Source: Zhongshania sp. R06B22 (GTDB taxonomy: Bacteria; Pseudomonadota; Gammaproteobacteria; Pseudomonadales; Spongiibacteraceae). From it: a DNA stretch of 64,000 bases. The position numbers and the translations under genes were made by a program. The stretch lies in assembly GCF_040892595.1 (NCBI RefSeq), contig NZ_JBFRYB010000001.1:1984001-2048000 (forward strand), read 5' to 3'. The notes under the pieces are model-generated. The model was not told the origin of the DNA and did not search any database. It was given only the letters and a program-made list of their open reading frames with translations. Positions 57,639 through 64,000 of this stretch are shown one piece after another. Numbering within the stretch: the first letter of the stretch is position 1; every line of letters starts with the position of its first letter.

Positions 57639-57702
57639 AATAACAACTGTTATTAGTGAGTTGGCAGTGATAATCACTGTGATTTATGCTCTTTTTTATA
57701 AT
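57639..57702 (+). promoter_or_regulatory. Promoter with stacked palindromes before the switch-complex operon
   Basis: A TATAAT at 57697-57702 fits a sigma-70 -10 box, giving a leader of ~80 bases. No good -35 is present; at that place is the palindrome CAGTGAT-A-ATCACTG (57665-57679), whose right half also pairs with the next GTGATT (57672-57684). A second inverted repeat, AATAACA-AC-TGTTATT (57639-57654), lies upstream. The GTGAT/ATCAC half-sites are ~6 bases apart. Such a layout suggests a dimeric activator or repressor. Confidence 0.55.
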
Positions 57703-57790
57703 GGGTTGTCAAAAAAATGACATTTTATTGTTTTTACTCCTGCTTTTTCGGTTTCTGTCATTATATTGACGGTCGTGGGGCTTGGCGTTA

Positions 57791-58501
57791 GTGGTGCAAG
57801 AATATGAGACGGCAGAGATAGTCGAGGCTGGGGCATTATCGATACCTAGCTACATTTCCATGTTGGTTATGGCGCTGTGTTTTATCGCCGGCGTGCTATT
57901 GATGACGGAAGTGGCTTGGCAGTACTGGCGCTCTACCTACAGCGCAGGATTTGAGCCGGCTCAAAACGACCTACGCAGTCAGCGTGAGGCATATTTGACC
58001 CGCAAAGTGCTGAATTTGGCGACCTCAGTTATTGATGGTCGCGATATAAAAATAACGGTGCAAGTAGACAGTGGCGACAAAAATGGGCTTGGCGAAGGCG
58101 CGGAGGTGAAAGCCGTTCTGATTTTAGTAAATCGACCCGCGCACGTGCCGGATGTTGAAGAAGCGCTAGCGGCGGTCGTTACAGCTGGCTTGGCCTTGAA
58201 TACTGGGCGGGGAGATCAGCTAAGTGTGCAGTTTCGCACGTTCTCGAAAACAAATAATGATGGTAATACCTTATGGGGACTCGTTCTTATTCAGCGACTA
58301 TATCTGGCACTGGGCCTATTGCTGATCGGCGGTGGTGGCTTTGCGTGGGCATACCATCGTTACCAGCAATTGCGAGCAAAAGCTCGGCAGCTAGAGAGTG
58401 ACTACCGTGATCAATTACGCCGCTTTCAGGCTATTGCTGAAGAAGAGCCCGCCCGTGTTGCTAGCGTCTTAAGTGATTGGTTGAATGGGGCTCGGAGCTA
58501 A
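57791..58501 (+). CDS. Miniature FliF-like MS-ring protein (236 aa)
   Basis: This is a FliF homologue with most of the ectodomain missing. Membrane helix 1 is at residues ~17-38, helix 2 at ~158-184. Between them 'LTRKVLNLATSVIDGRDIKITVQVD' and 'AVLILVNRPAHVPDVEEALAAVVTAG..RGDQLSV' track the RBM3-type region of FliF; RBM1 and RBM2 have no counterpart. The C-terminal 'QAIAEEEPARVASVLSDWLNG' matches the FliG-binding tail of FliF. Canonical FliF has ~550 residues. No signal peptide is needed. The start is GTG 57791 (TTG 57782 and GTG 57794 are possible), with GGGG upstream. It overlaps the fliG-like gene by one base. Confidence 0.85.
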   Translation: MVQEYETAEIVEAGALSIPSYISMLVMALCFIAGVLLMTEVAWQYWRSTYSAGFEPAQNDLRSQREAYLTRKVLNLATSVIDGRDIKITVQVDSGDKNGLGEGAEVKAVLILVNRPAHVPDVEEALAAVVTAGLALNTGRGDQLSVQFRTFSKTNNDGNTLWGLVLIQRLYLALGLLLIGGGGFAWAYHRYQQLRAKARQLESDYRDQLRRFQAIAEEEPARVASVLSDWLNGARS

Positions 58502-59496
58502 TGGCCACATCGATGAACTTAGCGGATGCGGAGCAGGCAGCGGCCTTAATTATGTCGCTTGATAAACCGCAGGCCGCCGCTGTTTTACGAGCGCTGCAGC
58601 CCGCCGATGTGCATCGCTTGGCGGCAGCGATGAGCGGTATGGACGCCCCGAGTAGTGCAGAATTTAATCGCGTGCTCGCGCGTTTTCATCGCGACGTAAA
58701 CACCTTTTCTGGGGTGAAACCGGGCGCGGGTGACGCGGTGTTGAGTTTGCTGGAAGAGGCGCTAGGCGAAGAGCGTGCAAAGCTCCTGGGTGATCGCCTA
58801 GACCTGCATGGCCAGTCTCGACATATTAATAAGTTAAAGTGGCTCGAAGCTAAGACCATTATCGATATCATCAGACGCGAACATCCACAAATACAGGCCG
58901 TTGTTATTGCCTGTCTGGATGCGAAGCAGGGTAGTGAGGTGCTGCTTGCATTTGAGGAGTCGCGAAGATTAGATTTATTAGGCCGTCTGTCGGGATTGAA
59001 GAATCTGACCCCGGCCGCGCTTGAAGAACTGGATTACTTGCTTGAGCAGTATTTTAGCGAGGTCGGTCGACCAATGGGACGGGCGATGACAGGGGATTCC
59101 TTGGCGGCCGCCTTGCTCAATGAAATGGACGTCGGGGCGGAGAGCAGTTTGCTTAATGGCTTGCGCGCAAGTCAGCCAGAACACGCTGCCCGAGTTGAGG
59201 AGTTAATGTTCGGCTTTGGCCAAATTGTGAATATGGCAGAAGACGATATTGCTATTCTGGCGAAACAGCTAGCGCCAGAGATCCTAGCTCCCGCCTTGGC
59301 AGAAGCGGGAGCGCAGCTCCGGCGCCGATTTTTAAGTGTGCTAACAAATGAGAAGAAGCAGGCGATTTCCTTGTTGTCACGCCGTTTCACGCAAACAGAG
59401 TCAATGAGTGCGCAAGCGGAGATAGTCAGGGTTGCAAAACAAATGGCGGCGGTTGGCGAAGTTATTCTCGATGCCCGTAAAATAGATGTATTTTAG
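58501..59496 (+). CDS. FliG-like switch protein (331 aa)
   Basis: It aligns end to end with flagellar FliG and has exactly its length. The N-terminal domain binds the FliF-like tail (residues 8-95). The EHPQ motif, FliG's hinge to FliM, is at residues 127-130, and 'MFGFGQIVNMAEDDIAIL' near 236 leads to the C-terminal domain. There the torque-helix charges of E. coli FliG (Lys264, Arg281, Asp288-Asp289) are not kept: by eye they read Ala, Glu and Leu-Leu, followed by Arg-Arg. It may not pair with standard MotA. TAATG overlap with the gene before. Confidence 0.88.
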   Translation: MATSMNLADAEQAAALIMSLDKPQAAAVLRALQPADVHRLAAAMSGMDAPSSAEFNRVLARFHRDVNTFSGVKPGAGDAVLSLLEEALGEERAKLLGDRLDLHGQSRHINKLKWLEAKTIIDIIRREHPQIQAVVIACLDAKQGSEVLLAFEESRRLDLLGRLSGLKNLTPAALEELDYLLEQYFSEVGRPMGRAMTGDSLAAALLNEMDVGAESSLLNGLRASQPEHAARVEELMFGFGQIVNMAEDDIAILAKQLAPEILAPALAEAGAQLRRRFLSVLTNEKKQAISLLSRRFTQTESMSAQAEIVRVAKQMAAVGEVILDARKIDVF

Positions 59497-59634
59497 TACT
59501 CGGTTTTACTTGCCGATAACCTAGACTTAGCTATCATTGCCAAGCAAAAAATAGCAAGCTGCAATCAACGGCGTATTAGCCCTAAATAGATAACACGATT
59601 TATCCAGCTATTTAAACAAGGACGTTTTAAGCCC

Positions 59635-59979
59635 ATGCCCGCATTAGATTTAGCCTTATTGGAAGAACTACGTGAGTTTATGGAAGACGATGTTTTCTCC
59701 TTGATTGACGAGTTTGAGATCGATACTCAAGAGCGGCTGGCGGCTATAGAGCAAGCCATTATAAACCGTGACGCCGGCACTCTCAGGGCTATGGCGCACA
59801 CCATGAAGGGTGGGGCTGCATCGCTTGGCGCAGAAAATCTATCTCAGCATTTTCGCGGTTTGGAATATCGTGGTCGCGATGCAAGTTTTCAAGATATCCA
59901 GCAGGACTTTAGCAATGCCAAGCGCTGCTTTGCTGATTCAATGGTCTTGCTGCGTAAATGGTTGGCGGAAGATAAGTAG
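59635..59979 (+). CDS. Stand-alone HPt phosphotransfer protein (114 aa)
   Basis: This is a single HPt domain with the phosphorylatable His55 in 'AMAHTMKGGAASLGA' and a standard four-helix pattern. No kinase or receiver is fused. In this operon it could pass phosphate between a hybrid kinase or the CheA-like protein and the CheY-like protein. Canonical flagellar operons have no such gene between fliG and fliM. The ribosome site before ATG 59635 is AAGGACG. Confidence 0.85.
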   Translation: MPALDLALLEELREFMEDDVFSLIDEFEIDTQERLAAIEQAIINRDAGTLRAMAHTMKGGAASLGAENLSQHFRGLEYRGRDASFQDIQQDFSNAKRCFADSMVLLRKWLAEDK

Positions 59980-60099
59980 CGGCTGTCATTTTTTTGACAC
60001 GCAGTCGAGTTTTTAAGTCATTGATTTAAATAATAAAATATTGGCGCAAGTCTTGCTGTAAGTCCTGTATTCCTTTTGTTTAGTAGCGGTGTGGGCGTA

Positions 60100-61056
60100 A
60101 TGGTGAAGGATTTACTTTCCCAAGCAGAAATAGATGCCTTATTGGCGAATGTGCAGGCGCAAGCACCAAGCCCAGATCGCCAAAGTGCGGGTTCTGCAAG
60201 CCCACGTTCCTTTGATTTAGCCAGTCGGCGACGTTTAAAAAAGCGGCCCTTACCGGGCTTAGAACATATTAGTAAGCGGTTTGCGGAATACTTTCGAGAT
60301 AGTGTCTCCGACGTCCTAGGTCAAAGTGTCGATGTTGCCGCGATTGATCTGCAGTTCCAGGCTTATGGCGAATACCTGCATTCACTGTATGTCCCTACAT
60401 CCCTAAATTTAATGCGCTTACATCCGCTGAAAGGCGCTGCAATGATTGTCTTTGATGCGCGCTTGGTATTTCGATTAGTGGATATGTTCTTTGGTGGCAA
60501 CGGTACTCAGGGCCATGCTGACGGTCGCGACTTTAGTCAGGTCGAGCGTCGTGTTATCGGTCGATTGGTCAAGCGCGCTCACACTGATTATGATCGAGCT
60601 TGGCGCTTGGCGAGTGCAATGCGCTGCGAGTCATTGGCTATGGAAGTGAATCCTGCGATGGCCTCTATCGCTGGTCACACCGATAATATTGTGGTGTGTC
60701 GTTTTCAGATTGAATTAGATAGTGGCGGTGGCGGTGAATTTCATATTGCCTTGCCAGTGGCGATGTTGGAGCCCGTAATGGAGTTGCTCAGCAAGACAGA
60801 ATCGGCTGAGCATCCCGGTGATAATTCATTGTGGCAGAGCTCCCTGAGTCAGTCGCTGCTGGATACCAAGGTGGCAACACGTTGCACACTGGCGGAGCCG
60901 GTGATGAGTTTAGGGCAGGTTGCCGGCTTGCAAGTGGGTGATGTTATTCCGCTGACTAGCCGGGAGTCGTCGGTGCTAAAGGCCTCTGGCGTGCCAGTAG
61001 CAAGAGCGCATTTGGGCATTGTGAATGGGTGTTTGGCGCTTAAGATAGTGGAATAA
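60100..61056 (+). CDS. FliM-like switch protein (318 aa)
   Basis: This FliM homologue has all three parts: the N-terminal CheY-binding peptide 'LSQAEIDALLANV' (residues ~5-17), the middle domain with 'FGGNGTQG' (~131-138) and 'FSQVERRVIGRLVKRAHTDYDRAW', and the C-terminal SpoA/FliN-like domain ending near residue 318. The retained CheY peptide is strong evidence for switching by a phosphorylated receiver. Length is close to E. coli FliM (334). ATG 60100 was preferred over TTG 60076. Confidence 0.9.
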   Translation: MVKDLLSQAEIDALLANVQAQAPSPDRQSAGSASPRSFDLASRRRLKKRPLPGLEHISKRFAEYFRDSVSDVLGQSVDVAAIDLQFQAYGEYLHSLYVPTSLNLMRLHPLKGAAMIVFDARLVFRLVDMFFGGNGTQGHADGRDFSQVERRVIGRLVKRAHTDYDRAWRLASAMRCESLAMEVNPAMASIAGHTDNIVVCRFQIELDSGGGGEFHIALPVAMLEPVMELLSKTESAEHPGDNSLWQSSLSQSLLDTKVATRCTLAEPVMSLGQVAGLQVGDVIPLTSRESSVLKASGVPVARAHLGIVNGCLALKIVE

Positions 61057-61151
61057 AGCGGCTACTCTACAAGGCTAAGATTCACCAAAAATAGTTAGGG
61101 TGTAAAAAGCCGGCAGTTGTGCGACTTGAAATGTGACTAAGAGACTGGAAT

Positions 61152-61571
61152 ATGGACAAGCAAGACGAACTGCGACGTCAGCGTCAGGCCTTAAAAGAAG
61201 AAATGGAGGCAGCCGACAAGCTTGGGTTTCAAGGCGCCGATAGCGCAGGCTTAAAAGGGCCGACTCCGCTTGATGGCGTCGGTGCCAGACTTCGTGATCG
61301 GAGTACTAGCGGTCCAGATTTGACCATGGTGATGGATATTCCTGTTCGTCTTACCTTGGAGGTAGGCGGCAGCGATATGCCAATCCGGGATTTATTGCAG
61401 CTGCATCAGGGCGCTATCGTAGAGCTTGACCGGCAAGCTGGAGAGCCTTTAGATGTGTTGGTAAATGGCACCTTGATCGCGCGTGGGGAAGTGGTGGTGA
61501 TCGAAGATAAGTTGGGGATTCGGCTGACTGAGGTGGTAAGTCAAGCTGAGCGCCTGCAGTCATTGCGATAA
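61152..61571 (+). CDS. FliN-like switch protein (139 aa)
   Basis: This is a normal-sized FliN. The SpoA domain from about residue 57 reads 'TMVMDIPVRLTLEVGGSDMPIRDLLQL', 'GAIVELDRQAGEPLDVLVNG' and 'ARGEVVVIEDKLGIRLTEVVS', matching flagellar FliN nearly position by position. The N-terminal 55 residues are charged. In the classic cluster fliO, fliP, fliQ, fliR, flhB and flhA would follow; here they do not. Confidence 0.9.
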   Translation: MDKQDELRRQRQALKEEMEAADKLGFQGADSAGLKGPTPLDGVGARLRDRSTSGPDLTMVMDIPVRLTLEVGGSDMPIRDLLQLHQGAIVELDRQAGEPLDVLVNGTLIARGEVVVIEDKLGIRLTEVVSQAERLQSLR

Positions 61572-61637
61572 TTGTTGGTCGGTCGTTTTGTGCGCCACGC
61601 TGGGCTTAGAGGGTGGCTACCCGGGAGATGAAGAATA

Positions 61638-62204
61638 ATGAAACGTAGGCTGGTATTTTTAAGTCGCGATCACGACGGGCTTTGCGAAATTGTTGAAATG
61701 CTTAATCAACCGCATTTGAATGGCTGGCGCTGGTGGATTTTTACCGCTGCGGCTGCCGATGTTCAGCGCCTTGGGCTGCCGCTGGCCTCCCCGCTGATGC
61801 TGACCAATATGCTTGGCGGAGCGTGGCGGGGTGGTTTCTGGGGCTTTTGCTTGGGTGTATTATTGGCCGTGTTTGTCTTAACGCTTTTCACTGTTGATGA
61901 GGGCTTGGCGCGGACTATTATTATGTATTCGCTGCCCATTACCCTGCTGTCCTTTGGTGCCTGGGAGGGCGGTTTTCTCGGATTGATGCAGAACAACCCT
62001 AGCTTCGATGATTACCGTCCTTATGCCGCGAGTAATTTATTTGTCCTCCTCGTTGATGTTCATGCAGTGGATCAGCGCTTGCTAAAGAAAATTATGGCGA
62101 TGTGTAATGCCGACCAGGTTGGCGAACACAGTCGCAGAATGTGGGGCTTTCCTTGGCGCGAGAATATGTTTAACAACGCTGAATTGCCAGCGAAGCTATC
62201 ATGA
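61638..62204 (+). CDS. Small membrane protein, DUF1269-like (188 aa)
   Basis: A ~45-residue soluble N-terminus ('RRLVFLSRDHDGLCEIVEMLN', then 'WWIFTAAAADVQRLGLP') resembles the ferredoxin-like part of small proteins annotated as DUF1269 or 'magnesium transporter' in gammaproteobacteria. Two close hydrophobic segments follow (about residues 60-85 and 95-120) and a soluble tail. It overlaps the FlhG-like gene by ATGA, so it belongs to the operon. GGGAGATGAAG precedes its ATG. It takes the place where export or FlhF genes usually lie. Function unknown. Confidence 0.7.
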   Translation: MKRRLVFLSRDHDGLCEIVEMLNQPHLNGWRWWIFTAAAADVQRLGLPLASPLMLTNMLGGAWRGGFWGFCLGVLLAVFVLTLFTVDEGLARTIIMYSLPITLLSFGAWEGGFLGLMQNNPSFDDYRPYAASNLFVLLVDVHAVDQRLLKKIMAMCNADQVGEHSRRMWGFPWRENMFNNAELPAKLS

Positions 62205-63040
62205 CTCGGGCAATTCAAGTGATCGCCGTAAGTGGCGGTAAAGGTGGCGTTGGTAAAAGTAATGTCGCTATCAATCTCAGTGTCGCGCTGGCAGAAAATG
62301 GTTCAAGGGTGGTGCTTTTGGATGCGGATTTTGGTCTGGCAAATGTCGATGTGCTGCTTGGGCTCAAAGCGTTAAATACCATAGAGCAAGTCTTAGATGG
62401 TCAGTGTTCGCTGCAGGATATTTTACTGACAGGCCCTGCGGGCATAAAAATTATTCCGGCGTCGTCGGGAACGCGACGCTTAAGTATGCTCAGCTCCCTA
62501 GAACACGCAGGTTTAATTCGCGCTTTTAGCGATATTGCCGGTCAATTGGATGTCTTGGTCATTGATACCGCTGCGGGCATCTCAGACTCTGTGGTCAATT
62601 TTCTGTCTGCTGCACACGAAGTCTTAATGGTGGTCTGCAACGAACCAAGTTCGATAACAGATGCTTACGCACTCATTAAATTGTTGAATCGCGATTTTGG
62701 TCGCAGTCGGTTCCGTATTGTGGCGAATATGGTTGCCGATGAGCAGGAGGGGCGCCAACTTTTTGAAAGTTTGAATCAGGTTTGTGGCCAATTTTTGGAC
62801 GTCGGCTTGATCTACGCAGGTACGGTGCCGTTTGATTTGAAGCTTAGAGAGGCTGTACGCCAGCAAGAGCCAGTGATCTTGGCGGCGCCAAGTAGTCCCT
62901 CTGCCAGGGCATTGAGGGAGTTAGCAAAACAGGTGCAAACTTGGCCTTTGCCAGCCAAGGCGCAGGGGCATTTAGTATTTTTTGTTGAGCGCTTATTAGC
63001 GCTCAACACGGCGGCTGATGACCCGGTGGCTCAACATTAA
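62201..63040 (+). CDS. FlhG/FleN-like MinD-family ATPase (279 aa)
   Basis: This P-loop ATPase is of the MinD/ParA class and nearest to FleN/FlhG: 'VIAVSGGKGGVGKSNVAINLSVALAENGSRVVLLDADFGLANVDVLLGL' has the deviant Walker A (GKGGVGKS, residues ~13-20) and the FlhG 'DADFGLANVDVLLGL'. FlhG sets number and place of flagella by acting on the C-ring and FlhF. Here no flhF precedes it and the N-terminal helix that stimulates FlhF is absent. It could localise or count the switch assembly. A hydrophobic C-terminal helix of membrane-targeting type is not obvious. Confidence 0.88.
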   Translation: MTRAIQVIAVSGGKGGVGKSNVAINLSVALAENGSRVVLLDADFGLANVDVLLGLKALNTIEQVLDGQCSLQDILLTGPAGIKIIPASSGTRRLSMLSSLEHAGLIRAFSDIAGQLDVLVIDTAAGISDSVVNFLSAAHEVLMVVCNEPSSITDAYALIKLLNRDFGRSRFRIVANMVADEQEGRQLFESLNQVCGQFLDVGLIYAGTVPFDLKLREAVRQQEPVILAAPSSPSARALRELAKQVQTWPLPAKAQGHLVFFVERLLALNTAADDPVAQH

Positions 63041-63516
63041 TGAGTGATGATCTTCGGGATTTAAGCCCAAACCCCTTTAGGGGTAATCATGAGGAAATAG
63101 ACCCTGTTGTCTCGGAGTCGTATTCGCCGGCTGAGATGCGGATATTGGTGGTGGAAAGCTTTTCTTCAATGCGACGTATTATTTGTAATTTACTCACTGA
63201 CTTGGGGTATCGTTATATTAGTGAAGCGGAAGATGGCTTGTCGGCGCTCCCCATGCTCCACAACCAACGCTTTGATTTAGTTATTACTGATTTGATTATG
63301 CCGAGGATGTCCGGTTTAGATCTGCTGCGGGCGATCAGGGCAGACAGTAACTTAACGCATATCCGGGTATTGATGATTACCGCTGACGCCCAGCGCGGAC
63401 AAATTATCGCCGCGGCGCAGGCCGGGGTAGATGCGTATATGGTTAAACCCTTTACGGCGGCGATGCTGGAAAATAAAATTCTGGCTGTTATCGGCAACCC
63501 CAGATCAAAGTCCTAA
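63040..63516 (+). CDS. CheY-like response regulator with N-terminal extension (158 aa)
   Basis: After ~32 extra residues the protein is nearly a CheY: 'SMRRIICNLLTDLGY', 'EAEDGLSALPMLHNQRFDLVITDLIMPRMSGLDLL' with phospho-acceptor Asp in 'ITDLIMP', 'VLMITADAQRGQIIAAAQAGVDAYMVKPF' with the Thr and Lys switch residues. The acidic pair that holds Mg2+ (Asp12-Asp13 in CheY) is Glu-Ser here ('LVVESFSSM'). Phosphorylation may therefore be weak or Mg2+-independent. TAATG overlap links it to the ATPase gene. Confidence 0.88.
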   Translation: MSDDLRDLSPNPFRGNHEEIDPVVSESYSPAEMRILVVESFSSMRRIICNLLTDLGYRYISEAEDGLSALPMLHNQRFDLVITDLIMPRMSGLDLLRAIRADSNLTHIRVLMITADAQRGQIIAAAQAGVDAYMVKPFTAAMLENKILAVIGNPRSKS

Positions 63517-63580
63517 ACACGGCAGTCTGCTTGATATTACCCGTGTAGTCCCCTTGCTTTTCCAGAGTAAATCTAACTTA

Positions 63581-63604
63581 ACGGTATATGACACGATACC
63601 GTGT
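63581..63604. promoter_or_regulatory. Nested inverted repeats upstream of the CheA-like gene
   Basis: ACGGTAT (63581-63587) pairs with ATACCGT (63596-63602), and ACACG (63591-63595) pairs with CGTGT (63600-63604); the two foldings exclude each other. The 242-base gap between cheY-like and cheA-like genes also has a TATAAT at 63694-63699. It may be an internal promoter and operator. Confidence 0.4.
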
Positions 63605-63758
63605 AAGTGTGATGTAGCCGACATCCTTGGCGGCGGCGATCGGTGATAATGACGGGTAAGTGCCGCGTCAGTGATTGAGGCGGTGCCGCTAAATATAATA
63701 ATTTACCATGATTGGTGGATGTGCTGTTTAGCTGTCTGACAATAACGTGGAGCTTAGT

Positions 63759-64000
63759 GTGAACGAACAAGAGCACGAAGGTATTTTGGCGATTTTCCTC
63801 GCGGAAGCAGAGGAGATTGTTCAGCGGTTGTCAGAGCAGCTTGCAGAATTGCGTTATGGCTACGATGGCCAGAGAATACTTGACGATATCCACAGAGGCT
63901 TCCATACCCTCTATGGCGGCGCAACGGTTTTAAAGATGACTGAGCTGGTGGAATGCGCCCAGTTAGCTGAGCGCGTTATGGAGCGTGTCCGCACCCGACG
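63759..64000 (+). CDS. CheA-like kinase, N-terminal HPt domain (cut by window end)
   Basis: GTG 63759 has GGAG six bases upstream and opens a frame that runs off the window. The 80 residues seen are an HPt domain: 'AIFLAEAEEIVQRLSEQL' and 'DIHRGFHTLYGGATVL'. The His is kept but the usual Lys three positions later is Tyr (HTLYGG, where CheA has HTxKGG). The dimer, kinase and CheW-like parts would lie beyond 64000, so calling it CheA is inference from context and domain. A ChpA/PilL-like hybrid is an alternative. Confidence 0.65.
   Translation, partial: MNEQEHEGILAIFLAEAEEIVQRLSEQLAELRYGYDGQRILDDIHRGFHTLYGGATVLKMTELVECAQLAERVMERVRTR

Follow-up and report, generated by a model that had tools for sequence, protein, structure and literature searches.

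A conserved flagellar switch operon without export genes or torque motifs in Zhongshania

Introduction

Why would a bacterium that has a complete set of flagellar genes also carry a separate operon for a flagellar switch, with no genes for export, rod, hook or filament beside it? The question is raised by a locus of Zhongshania sp. R06B22 at the end of a 64,000-nucleotide stretch of DNA (hereafter, the window), which corresponds to positions 1984001-2048000 of a 3.5-Mb contig in a genome that is 99.99% complete. An original prediction, made from the sequence of the window, described nine genes in one direction encoding homologues of the MS-ring, the C-ring, FlhG, CheY and CheA, with a lone Hpt protein and a small membrane protein (X) among them, and proposed a CheY-controlled ring serving as a signalling platform, a polarity device or a rotor for another organelle. 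The run of nine is real, as the list of open reading frames (ORFs) has nine ORFs on the + strand at 57782-64000. The protein families are known; their combination here, a switch kept with export and torque lost, in a dedicated and conserved operon beside a second flagellum, was not described among the papers listed by searches of the open-licence literature.

Gene Content and Genomic Setting

The gene composition of the operon is well supported. Pfam domain matches along the nine ORFs are FliG_N/M/C, Hpt, FliM with FliMN_C, FliMN_C, a ParA/MinD-type ATPase, Response_reg, and Hpt, and the C-ring domains FliG, FliM, and FliN are all matched by Pfam and NCBIfam. The overlapping starts that had been predicted are present at X/FlhG2 and FlhG2/CheY2, while FliF and FliG overlap, by one base, only if the ATG at 58501 is the start of FliG. 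Past position 64000, where export genes might still have appeared, the Hpt gene ends and is followed by ccmA-B-C-E-F. No export, rod, hook, or filament genes were found beside the operon, as originally claimed, and among the 20 loci read there is neither room nor an ORF for export or axial genes between ttcA and ccmA (the names ccm, ttcA, and mdh were given by eye from the sequence and not by family search).

The export genes are found elsewhere. FlhA has a single match in the genome, outside the operon at 1750783-1752753, approximately 290 kb away, within a complete flagellar island that has Pfam matches to FliF, FliH, FliI, FliP, FliR, FlhB, FlhF, FliC, FlgE, and a flagellin-type protein taken as FlgL (other island genes were named by eye). 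A genome search for FlhA, FliP, and FliC, as had been suggested, therefore finds them, and the operon itself is still free of export genes. Because the genome also has this complete island, the operon adds to a full set of flagellar genes and does not stand in for one. FlhA likewise had one match per genome in all nine family genomes sampled, this one included. A separate cluster at 1.69 Mb encodes a CheA with kinase and CheW domains, CheY, CheB, and a methyl-accepting chemotaxis protein, and a second CheW-domain cluster at 0.17 Mb includes an open frame of 1799 aa that was read by eye as a Chp-type CheA.

Distribution Among Relatives

Fifty-seven relatives were scanned, and the operon was read in all 20 genomes that carry two FliGs, namely 18/18 genomes of the genus and two of the three from the sister genus; the third sister-genus genome (G020, 70% complete) had no FliG. 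A second FliM is present in each of the 20. The block lies between ttcA and ccmA throughout the genus (18/18) and, in reduced form, in two of the three sister-genus genomes, with ttcA upstream and ccmABCEF downstream in 20/20. This conservation in 20 genomes rules out chance. The original prediction had asked whether the nine genes always occur together, and this holds for the part common to all 20 loci, FliF tail-FliG-FliM-FliN-CheY-Hpt, although in G018 and G019 the CheA-like Hpt reaches no more than 27 and 44 bits. The other genes are not universal: Hpt1 and FlhG2 occur in 18/18 genus genomes and 0/2 of the sister genus, and X occurs in 17/18 genus genomes (G009 is the exception), while G018 gave one 18-bit match. 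Those homologues of mini-FliF and X that carried an organism name were labelled Zhongshania, one of them also Marortus.

A search for other switch-only loci among 195 genomes of the order gave, among the second FliG_M matches listed (to approximately 1e-16), only members of this family or G104 and G169, which have two FlhA matches each. Weaker second FliG_M matches, outside those listed, occur in many of the 195 genomes, and further switch-only loci may exist elsewhere in the order.

The cell division protein MinC was matched in 17 of the 18 genus genomes. The family genomes without a match are G009, G018, G019, and G020 (70% complete); the switch locus of G009 is without the membrane anchor and X, and those of G018 and G019 are without Hpt1 and FlhG2.

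A Switch Without Torque Motifs

FliG2 (58501..59496) has the FliG_N, FliG_M, and FliG_C domains (Pfam E 6.6e-22, 2.4e-21, and 5e-12), with an NCBIfam score below the cut-off (138 vs 227 bits) and approximately 25% identity to the flagellar FliG encoded in the same genome. The motif EHPQ is kept in 20/20 loci and MFxF in 16/20, whereas A[LM]KG, MSxRA, and [DE][DE]x4GP, which we take to mark the torque helix region of the FliG C-domain, are each found in 0/20. All five motifs are present in 17/17 distinct flagellar FliGs, eight of which come from the same family. Since the torque motifs are missing, the complex would not turn, and the earlier idea of a rotor for another organelle is disfavored by the same loss as well as by the single MotB-plug match of the genome, located at 1.085 Mb, nearly 1 Mb from the operon.

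FliM2 (60100..61056; Pfam FliM E 5.9e-48; TIGR01397 245 bits, above cut-off) begins with the CheY-docking peptide LSQAEIDALL, and the pattern LSQxE[IV]DALL (first residue L or M) is found in 20/20 loci compared with 17/28 flagellar FliMs. Its GGxG motif, presumably the contact with FliG, is in place in 15/20 loci, the window included, compared with 26/28 flagellar FliMs. FliN2 (61152..61571) scores 112 bits with TIGR02480, above cut-off.

The first gene encodes a mini-FliF (57791..58501), which has 236 aa when read from the GTG at 57791 (the ORF opens with TTG at 57782) and consists of a transmembrane (TM) segment, an RBM3-like domain, a second TM segment, and a FliG-binding tail. Pfam and NCBIfam gave no match, and a profile search of PDB sequences was uninformative for both mini-FliF and X. 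The AlphaFold model of mini-FliF has a mean predicted local distance difference test score (pLDDT) of 66, and the first 12 PDB matches in a fold search are FliF rings (best E 1.9e-4), with TM-scores of approximately 0.3 and root-mean-square deviations mostly near 10 Å. In addition, hhalign aligned it to the C-terminal half of FliF (probability score 94.7, E 6e-8). The predicted MS-ring homologue is thus a FliF by fold search and hhalign, although the earlier ring-building domains are gone and it is reduced to the RBM3-like domain and the FliG-binding tail.

The tail motif is present in 20/20 loci. FliF is a separate gene in 12 of them and fused to FliG in eight, and the fusions retain a periplasmic part (G004, G018, and G019), a TM hairpin (G001, G006, G012, and G013), or the bare tail (G009). 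With TM segments assigned by hydropathy, FliF has none in G009 and only one above the cut in G018. The separate FliF of G014 was recognized by alignment and tail only; it is enlarged to 340 aa, with extra sequence flanking the RBM3-like part on both sides (L053:3950-4972). Because the FliF-tail, FliG, and FliM motifs are retained, an assembled FliF-FliG-FliM-FliN complex is likely.

Signalling Proteins and X

Hpt1 (59635..59979; Pfam Hpt E 8e-11) carries the site AHTMKGG, and the pattern AHxxKG[GA] is found in 18/18 genus genomes. FlhG2 (62201..63040; Pfam PF10609 E 2.7e-22) is a MinD/ParA-type ATPase with the P-loop KGGVGK in 18/18; its C-terminal membrane-helix motif is likewise kept in 18/18, compared with 17/25 flagellar FlhG rows, and in the FlhG tree it forms its own clade beside the flagellar FlhGs. 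CheY2 (63040..63516; 144 bits with PRK10610 CheY, under the cut-off of 189) has, by aligned residues, an altered acid pair (E,S) and keeps D57, T87, Y106, and K109. D57 is present in 18/20 loci, and position 13 is aspartate in 10 and glutamate in one of the 20; in the CheYs of the order, all six residues looked at are present in 18/18. The CheY2 of G004 (L052:8370-8852) has lost the equivalents of D57, T87, Y106, and K109 in an open frame and can be described as a pseudo-receiver.

The last gene (63759..64000, ending at window-equivalent 64649; L004:6759-7649) had been called CheA, a name that has to be withdrawn. It encodes a CheA-like fragment with a P1-like Hpt domain, a linker, and a P3-like helix (read by eye), and Pfam found Hpt alone, with no HATPase_c kinase domain and no CheW-like domain. 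Its Hpt site in the window is FHTLYGG, with tyrosine in place of lysine, and the histidine is kept in 19/20.

X (61638..62204) is a predicted inner-membrane protein of 188 aa with a two-helix hairpin inside an alpha/beta domain, and it had no match in Pfam or NCBIfam. Its model has a pLDDT of 72, and the sole fold match under 0.001 was 6btm_D of alternative complex III (E 2.4e-4, TM-score approximately 0.3). A relationship to a respiratory-complex subunit was rejected, as this match is weak and no function is gained from it. A genome scan found 20 X loci, of which eight are operon-type (seven in Zhongshania and one in Spongiibacter thalassae) and 12 are distant; none of the window's switch genes stands beside X in the 10 distant loci looked at. 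The wider family comprises predicted membrane proteins of approximately 180 aa from Kangiella and other gammaproteobacteria (L107-L118), with GreB-like or cytochrome oxidase-like neighbors (by eye) at some loci and an adjoining receiver-domain protein at L111.

Promoter Boxes

Two promoters of sigma-54 type are predicted. P1 (57624..57639) is the -24/-12 box TGGCCTAATTACTGCA and the predicted promoter of the operon. A TGGCCYRAWWNCTGCW-like box, with GG and GC ten bases apart, precedes the first gene in 18/18 genus genomes, and TGG and CTGC are invariant in these 18 intergenic regions; it is found in 0/2 of the sister genus. The strict box occurs on the opposite strand in 0/20, and P1 is its sole copy in the window with both strands searched. 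Mononucleotide shuffles gave a mean of 0.09 of 20 (maximum 2) for this strict pattern, which was derived from the same sequences, while a looser generic pattern matched at P1 in 18/20 compared with a shuffle mean of 0.6.

P2 (60042..60057) is the box TGGCGCAAGTCTTGCT before fliM, where the looser pattern matches in 12/20; nine have TGGCNY-N5-TTGC, with the site 24-60 bp before the ORF start. Before ten other genes the looser pattern matched in 0-2 of 18-20 loci on the forward strand and in up to three, before CheY2, on the reverse. In 17 of 19 flagellar loci (the island of this genome and 18 order genomes, counted without a shuffle control), the 3.5 kb upstream of fliM contain intergenic sigma-54-type sites, often just 5' of genes presumed from distance to be fliK or fliL. 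Since similar sites precede these presumed genes, P2 resembles a promoter of the fliK/fliL type now joined to fliM2, and it is possibly a fossil of the ancestral fliK or fliL promoter. The genome encodes RpoN and two sigma-54 activators. A search upstream for a sigma-28-type pattern gave nothing beyond shuffles.

Origin and Maintenance

Based on gene order, neighbors, and the FliM tree, the operon is probably a remnant of the ancestral flagellar-chemotaxis operon of the lineage. In flagellar loci of the order, CheY follows FlhG by approximately 1 kb. Six of 23 order genomes carry an Hpt gene 5' of fliM, some of the 23 stretches being too short to show it, and G025 has it between fliG and fliM, so that the Hpt thought to be inserted looks ancestral. 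Chemotaxis genes lead into ccm in G029 and G056, and no ccm genes were found in the 20 kb beyond the G025 locus or in the G047 stretches read. The FliM tree places the 20 relic FliMs (group support 100/99) with 20 flagellar FliMs of the order and splits the relic group from the family's own eight flagellar FliMs at 100/100. The simplest history suggested by these sequences is one of replacement, in which an imported flagellum and chemotaxis set took over from the ancestral ones, after which the old operon was pruned; the direction of transfer is one that we infer.

The trees also hold points that count against this history. The branch leading to the family's flagellar FliMs is very long (2.83), because of which their separation may partly be a long-branch effect. 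The FlhG tree, computed without the G029 row (a 136-bit match and doubtful FlhG), keeps the three groups apart and joins the relic with most order FlhGs weakly (92/54), and the FliG tree, in which the row cG040 was a wrong ORF and was excluded from later counts, did not place the relic group.

The operon is maintained and under purifying selection, with its core close to the ccm genes. Ratios of nonsynonymous to synonymous substitution (dN/dS; NG86, own script) for the close pairs G016/G017, G010/G002, and G012/G013 are, in that order, 0.039, 0.060, and 0.099 for FliG2 (the third including the fused FliF piece), 0.028, 0.035, and 0.025 for FliM2, 0.056, 0.047, and 0.050 for FliN2, and 0.038, 0.034, and 0.037 for FlhG2. 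Values for Hpt1 (0.013, 0.081, and 0.191), CheY2 (0.018, 0.032, and 0.120), X (0.12, 0.06, and 0.29), and the CheA-like protein (0.125, 0.122, and 0.283) range more widely, and the ccm genes have 0.016-0.099, with one at 0.21. In two more distant pairs, synonymous sites were saturated for several genes. These low ratios exclude plain decay, and the possibility raised earlier, that the locus is a decayed fragment of a normal island, can be kept only as to its probable descent from one.

A separate reduction is seen in G030, from another family of the order and without an FlhA match, where an operon ruin (L072:6290-11003) keeps an apparent fliE, a full-length fliF, and a 107-aa start of fliG, followed by ParA- and CheW-type genes (by eye). 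It appears to be a flagellar-chemotaxis operon that underwent an internal deletion independently.

Possible Functions

Ring formation and function are matters that we infer from the retained motifs. Our leading reading, held tentatively and at a little under even probability, is that a non-rotating, membrane-anchored switch ring docks CheY2 and FlhG2 and thereby helps to determine how many copies of the cell's other flagellum are built or where. The tail of mini-FliF would hold FliG2, and FliG2 would hold FliM2-FliN2, with a ring or patch forming. CheY2 would bind the N-terminal peptide of FliM2; in some species Hpt phosphotransfer may control this step, and in others it may not depend on phosphorylation. 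FlhG2 would attach to FliM2-FliN2, in the way that Bacillus FlhG binds a C-ring protein, and the ring could be a spatial or counting device made alongside the flagellar genes under sigma-54. A spatial or counting scaffold is favored because CheY docking and FlhG binding remain and because FlhG has precedents. In Campylobacter jejuni, FlhG together with FlhF, FliF, FliM, and FliN restrains polar division, and no such effect is reported of fliE mutants and little or none of export-part mutants (PMC3228812). The FlhG of Bacillus subtilis interacts with the C-ring protein FliY (PMC12327844), and FlhG is reported to govern flagellar patterns in other bacteria. The broader proposal, that the ancestral C-ring, rid of export and torque, became a stationary, membrane-bound CheY/FlhG platform for where and how many flagella are made after a foreign flagellum took over swimming, is somewhat less probable. 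In its general form, the original idea of a CheY-linked switch without a secretion channel for signalling or polarity does fit, because export is absent, the motifs for FliF-FliG contact and CheY docking have been conserved, and selection is purifying; the rotor version is disfavored.

Several observations weigh against a flagellum-placing ring. Phospho-control is doubtful because D57 of CheY2 is lost in 2/20, position 13 is without an acid in 9/20 (window included), and the lysine three residues on from the CheA-like Hpt histidine is found in 2/20. MFxF of FliG is lost in 4/20 and GGxG of FliM in 5/20, and mini-FliF evolves fast (dN/dS 0.20 and 0.33 in two pairs). Anchoring is not universal, since in G009 the membrane segments of FliF and X are gone, and the proposed role of FlhG2 cannot apply in its present form to the sister genus, where the operon is without that gene. 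The C. jejuni system needs FlhF, which is absent from the Zhongshania operon, and a fliG mutant there showed at most a slight minicell phenotype, although FliG is kept in 20/20 loci here (PMC3228812).

Next after a spatial or counting scaffold ranks a pure signalling scaffold linked to CheY, with no role in flagellar placement and with its output to an effector, possibly X, a cyclic di-GMP pathway, or a pilus pathway. We consider this rather unlikely. CheY, the FliM peptide, and the CheA-like Hpt in 20/20 loci compared with FlhG2 in 18 would fit it, as would the CheW-domain cluster at 0.17 Mb with its Chp-type, CheA-like frame, but the CheY2 phospho-residues and the Hpt lysine decay in many species while FlhG2 is strongly constrained, and the operon has no output domain. 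It is improbable that FliG2, FliM2, and FliN2 are alternative subunits that enter or cap the C-ring of the complete flagellum and modify its switching. A second FliG and FliM in all 20 genomes, FlhA in the 9/9 sampled, and sigma-54-type boxes suggestive of co-expression would agree with this, whereas FliG2 is only distantly similar to its flagellar counterpart, is without torque motifs, and travels with or fused to its own FliF piece, and the family's flagellar FliM lies on the far side of the FliM tree.

Improbable too, and placed below the alternative subunits, is a Min-like inhibitor of polar division in which FlhG acts with FliF, FliM, and FliN. The retained genes resemble the C. jejuni set (PMC3228812), and G009, which has no MinC match, keeps FlhG2. 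However, MinC is matched in all other genus genomes, which disfavors replacement of Min, and the locus carries no FlhG2 in G018 and G019, which likewise gave no MinC match. Least credible of all is a decaying fragment without function. The stepwise losses seen in FliF length, CheY2 residues, and the X of G009 would suit it, as would the ruin in G030, but core-gene dN/dS of 0.025-0.10, open frames in 20 genomes, and the invariant TGG and CTGC of P1 in 18/18 speak strongly against it.

Comparison With Known Systems and Implications

With the polar MS-C ring (FliF-FliG-FliM-FliN) of Pseudomonadales, the operon shares protein families, gene order, the CheY-docking peptide, sigma-54-type boxes, FlhG and CheY downstream, and, in two relatives read, ccm neighbors. 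Unlike those flagella, it has no export, rod, hook, or filament genes, its FliF is without the earlier ring domains, its FliG is without torque motifs, and its CheA fragment is kinase-less. HptB of the Pseudomonas HptB-HsbR-HsbA pathway is a possible counterpart of the Hpt gene that stands 5' of fliM both here and in 6/23 ordinary order genomes; of the HptB partners, neither a response regulator/phosphatase nor an anti-anti-sigma gene was found in the operon.

Reduced flagellar remnants in Buchnera, its basal bodies, retain the export apparatus. In Lysobacter enzymogenes, flagellar genes have also outlasted the flagellum, as a flagellar type III secretion system that keeps the export apparatus (PMC9927559), whereas Zhongshania keeps the opposite half, the switch. 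The control system of C. jejuni shares the MS-ring, FliM/FliN, and FlhG and is independent of the rod and largely of export; it belongs to a flagellum that works and depends on FlhF, while Zhongshania has a dedicated operon without FlhF and MinC in 17/18 (PMC3228812).

The flagellar remnants compared here keep the export machine, and the Zhongshania operon keeps the switch only. Together, the fossil-like promoter and the graded shortening of FliF, from two TM segments with a periplasmic domain to a TM hairpin to a bare tail, form a comparative series for the dismantling and re-use of a molecular machine. If the ring forms, a flagellar rotor can function without rotating, and the C-ring would be, by itself, a module for signalling or positioning; the operon would then offer a natural system in which to study ring assembly, CheY docking, and FlhG control without secretion or torque.

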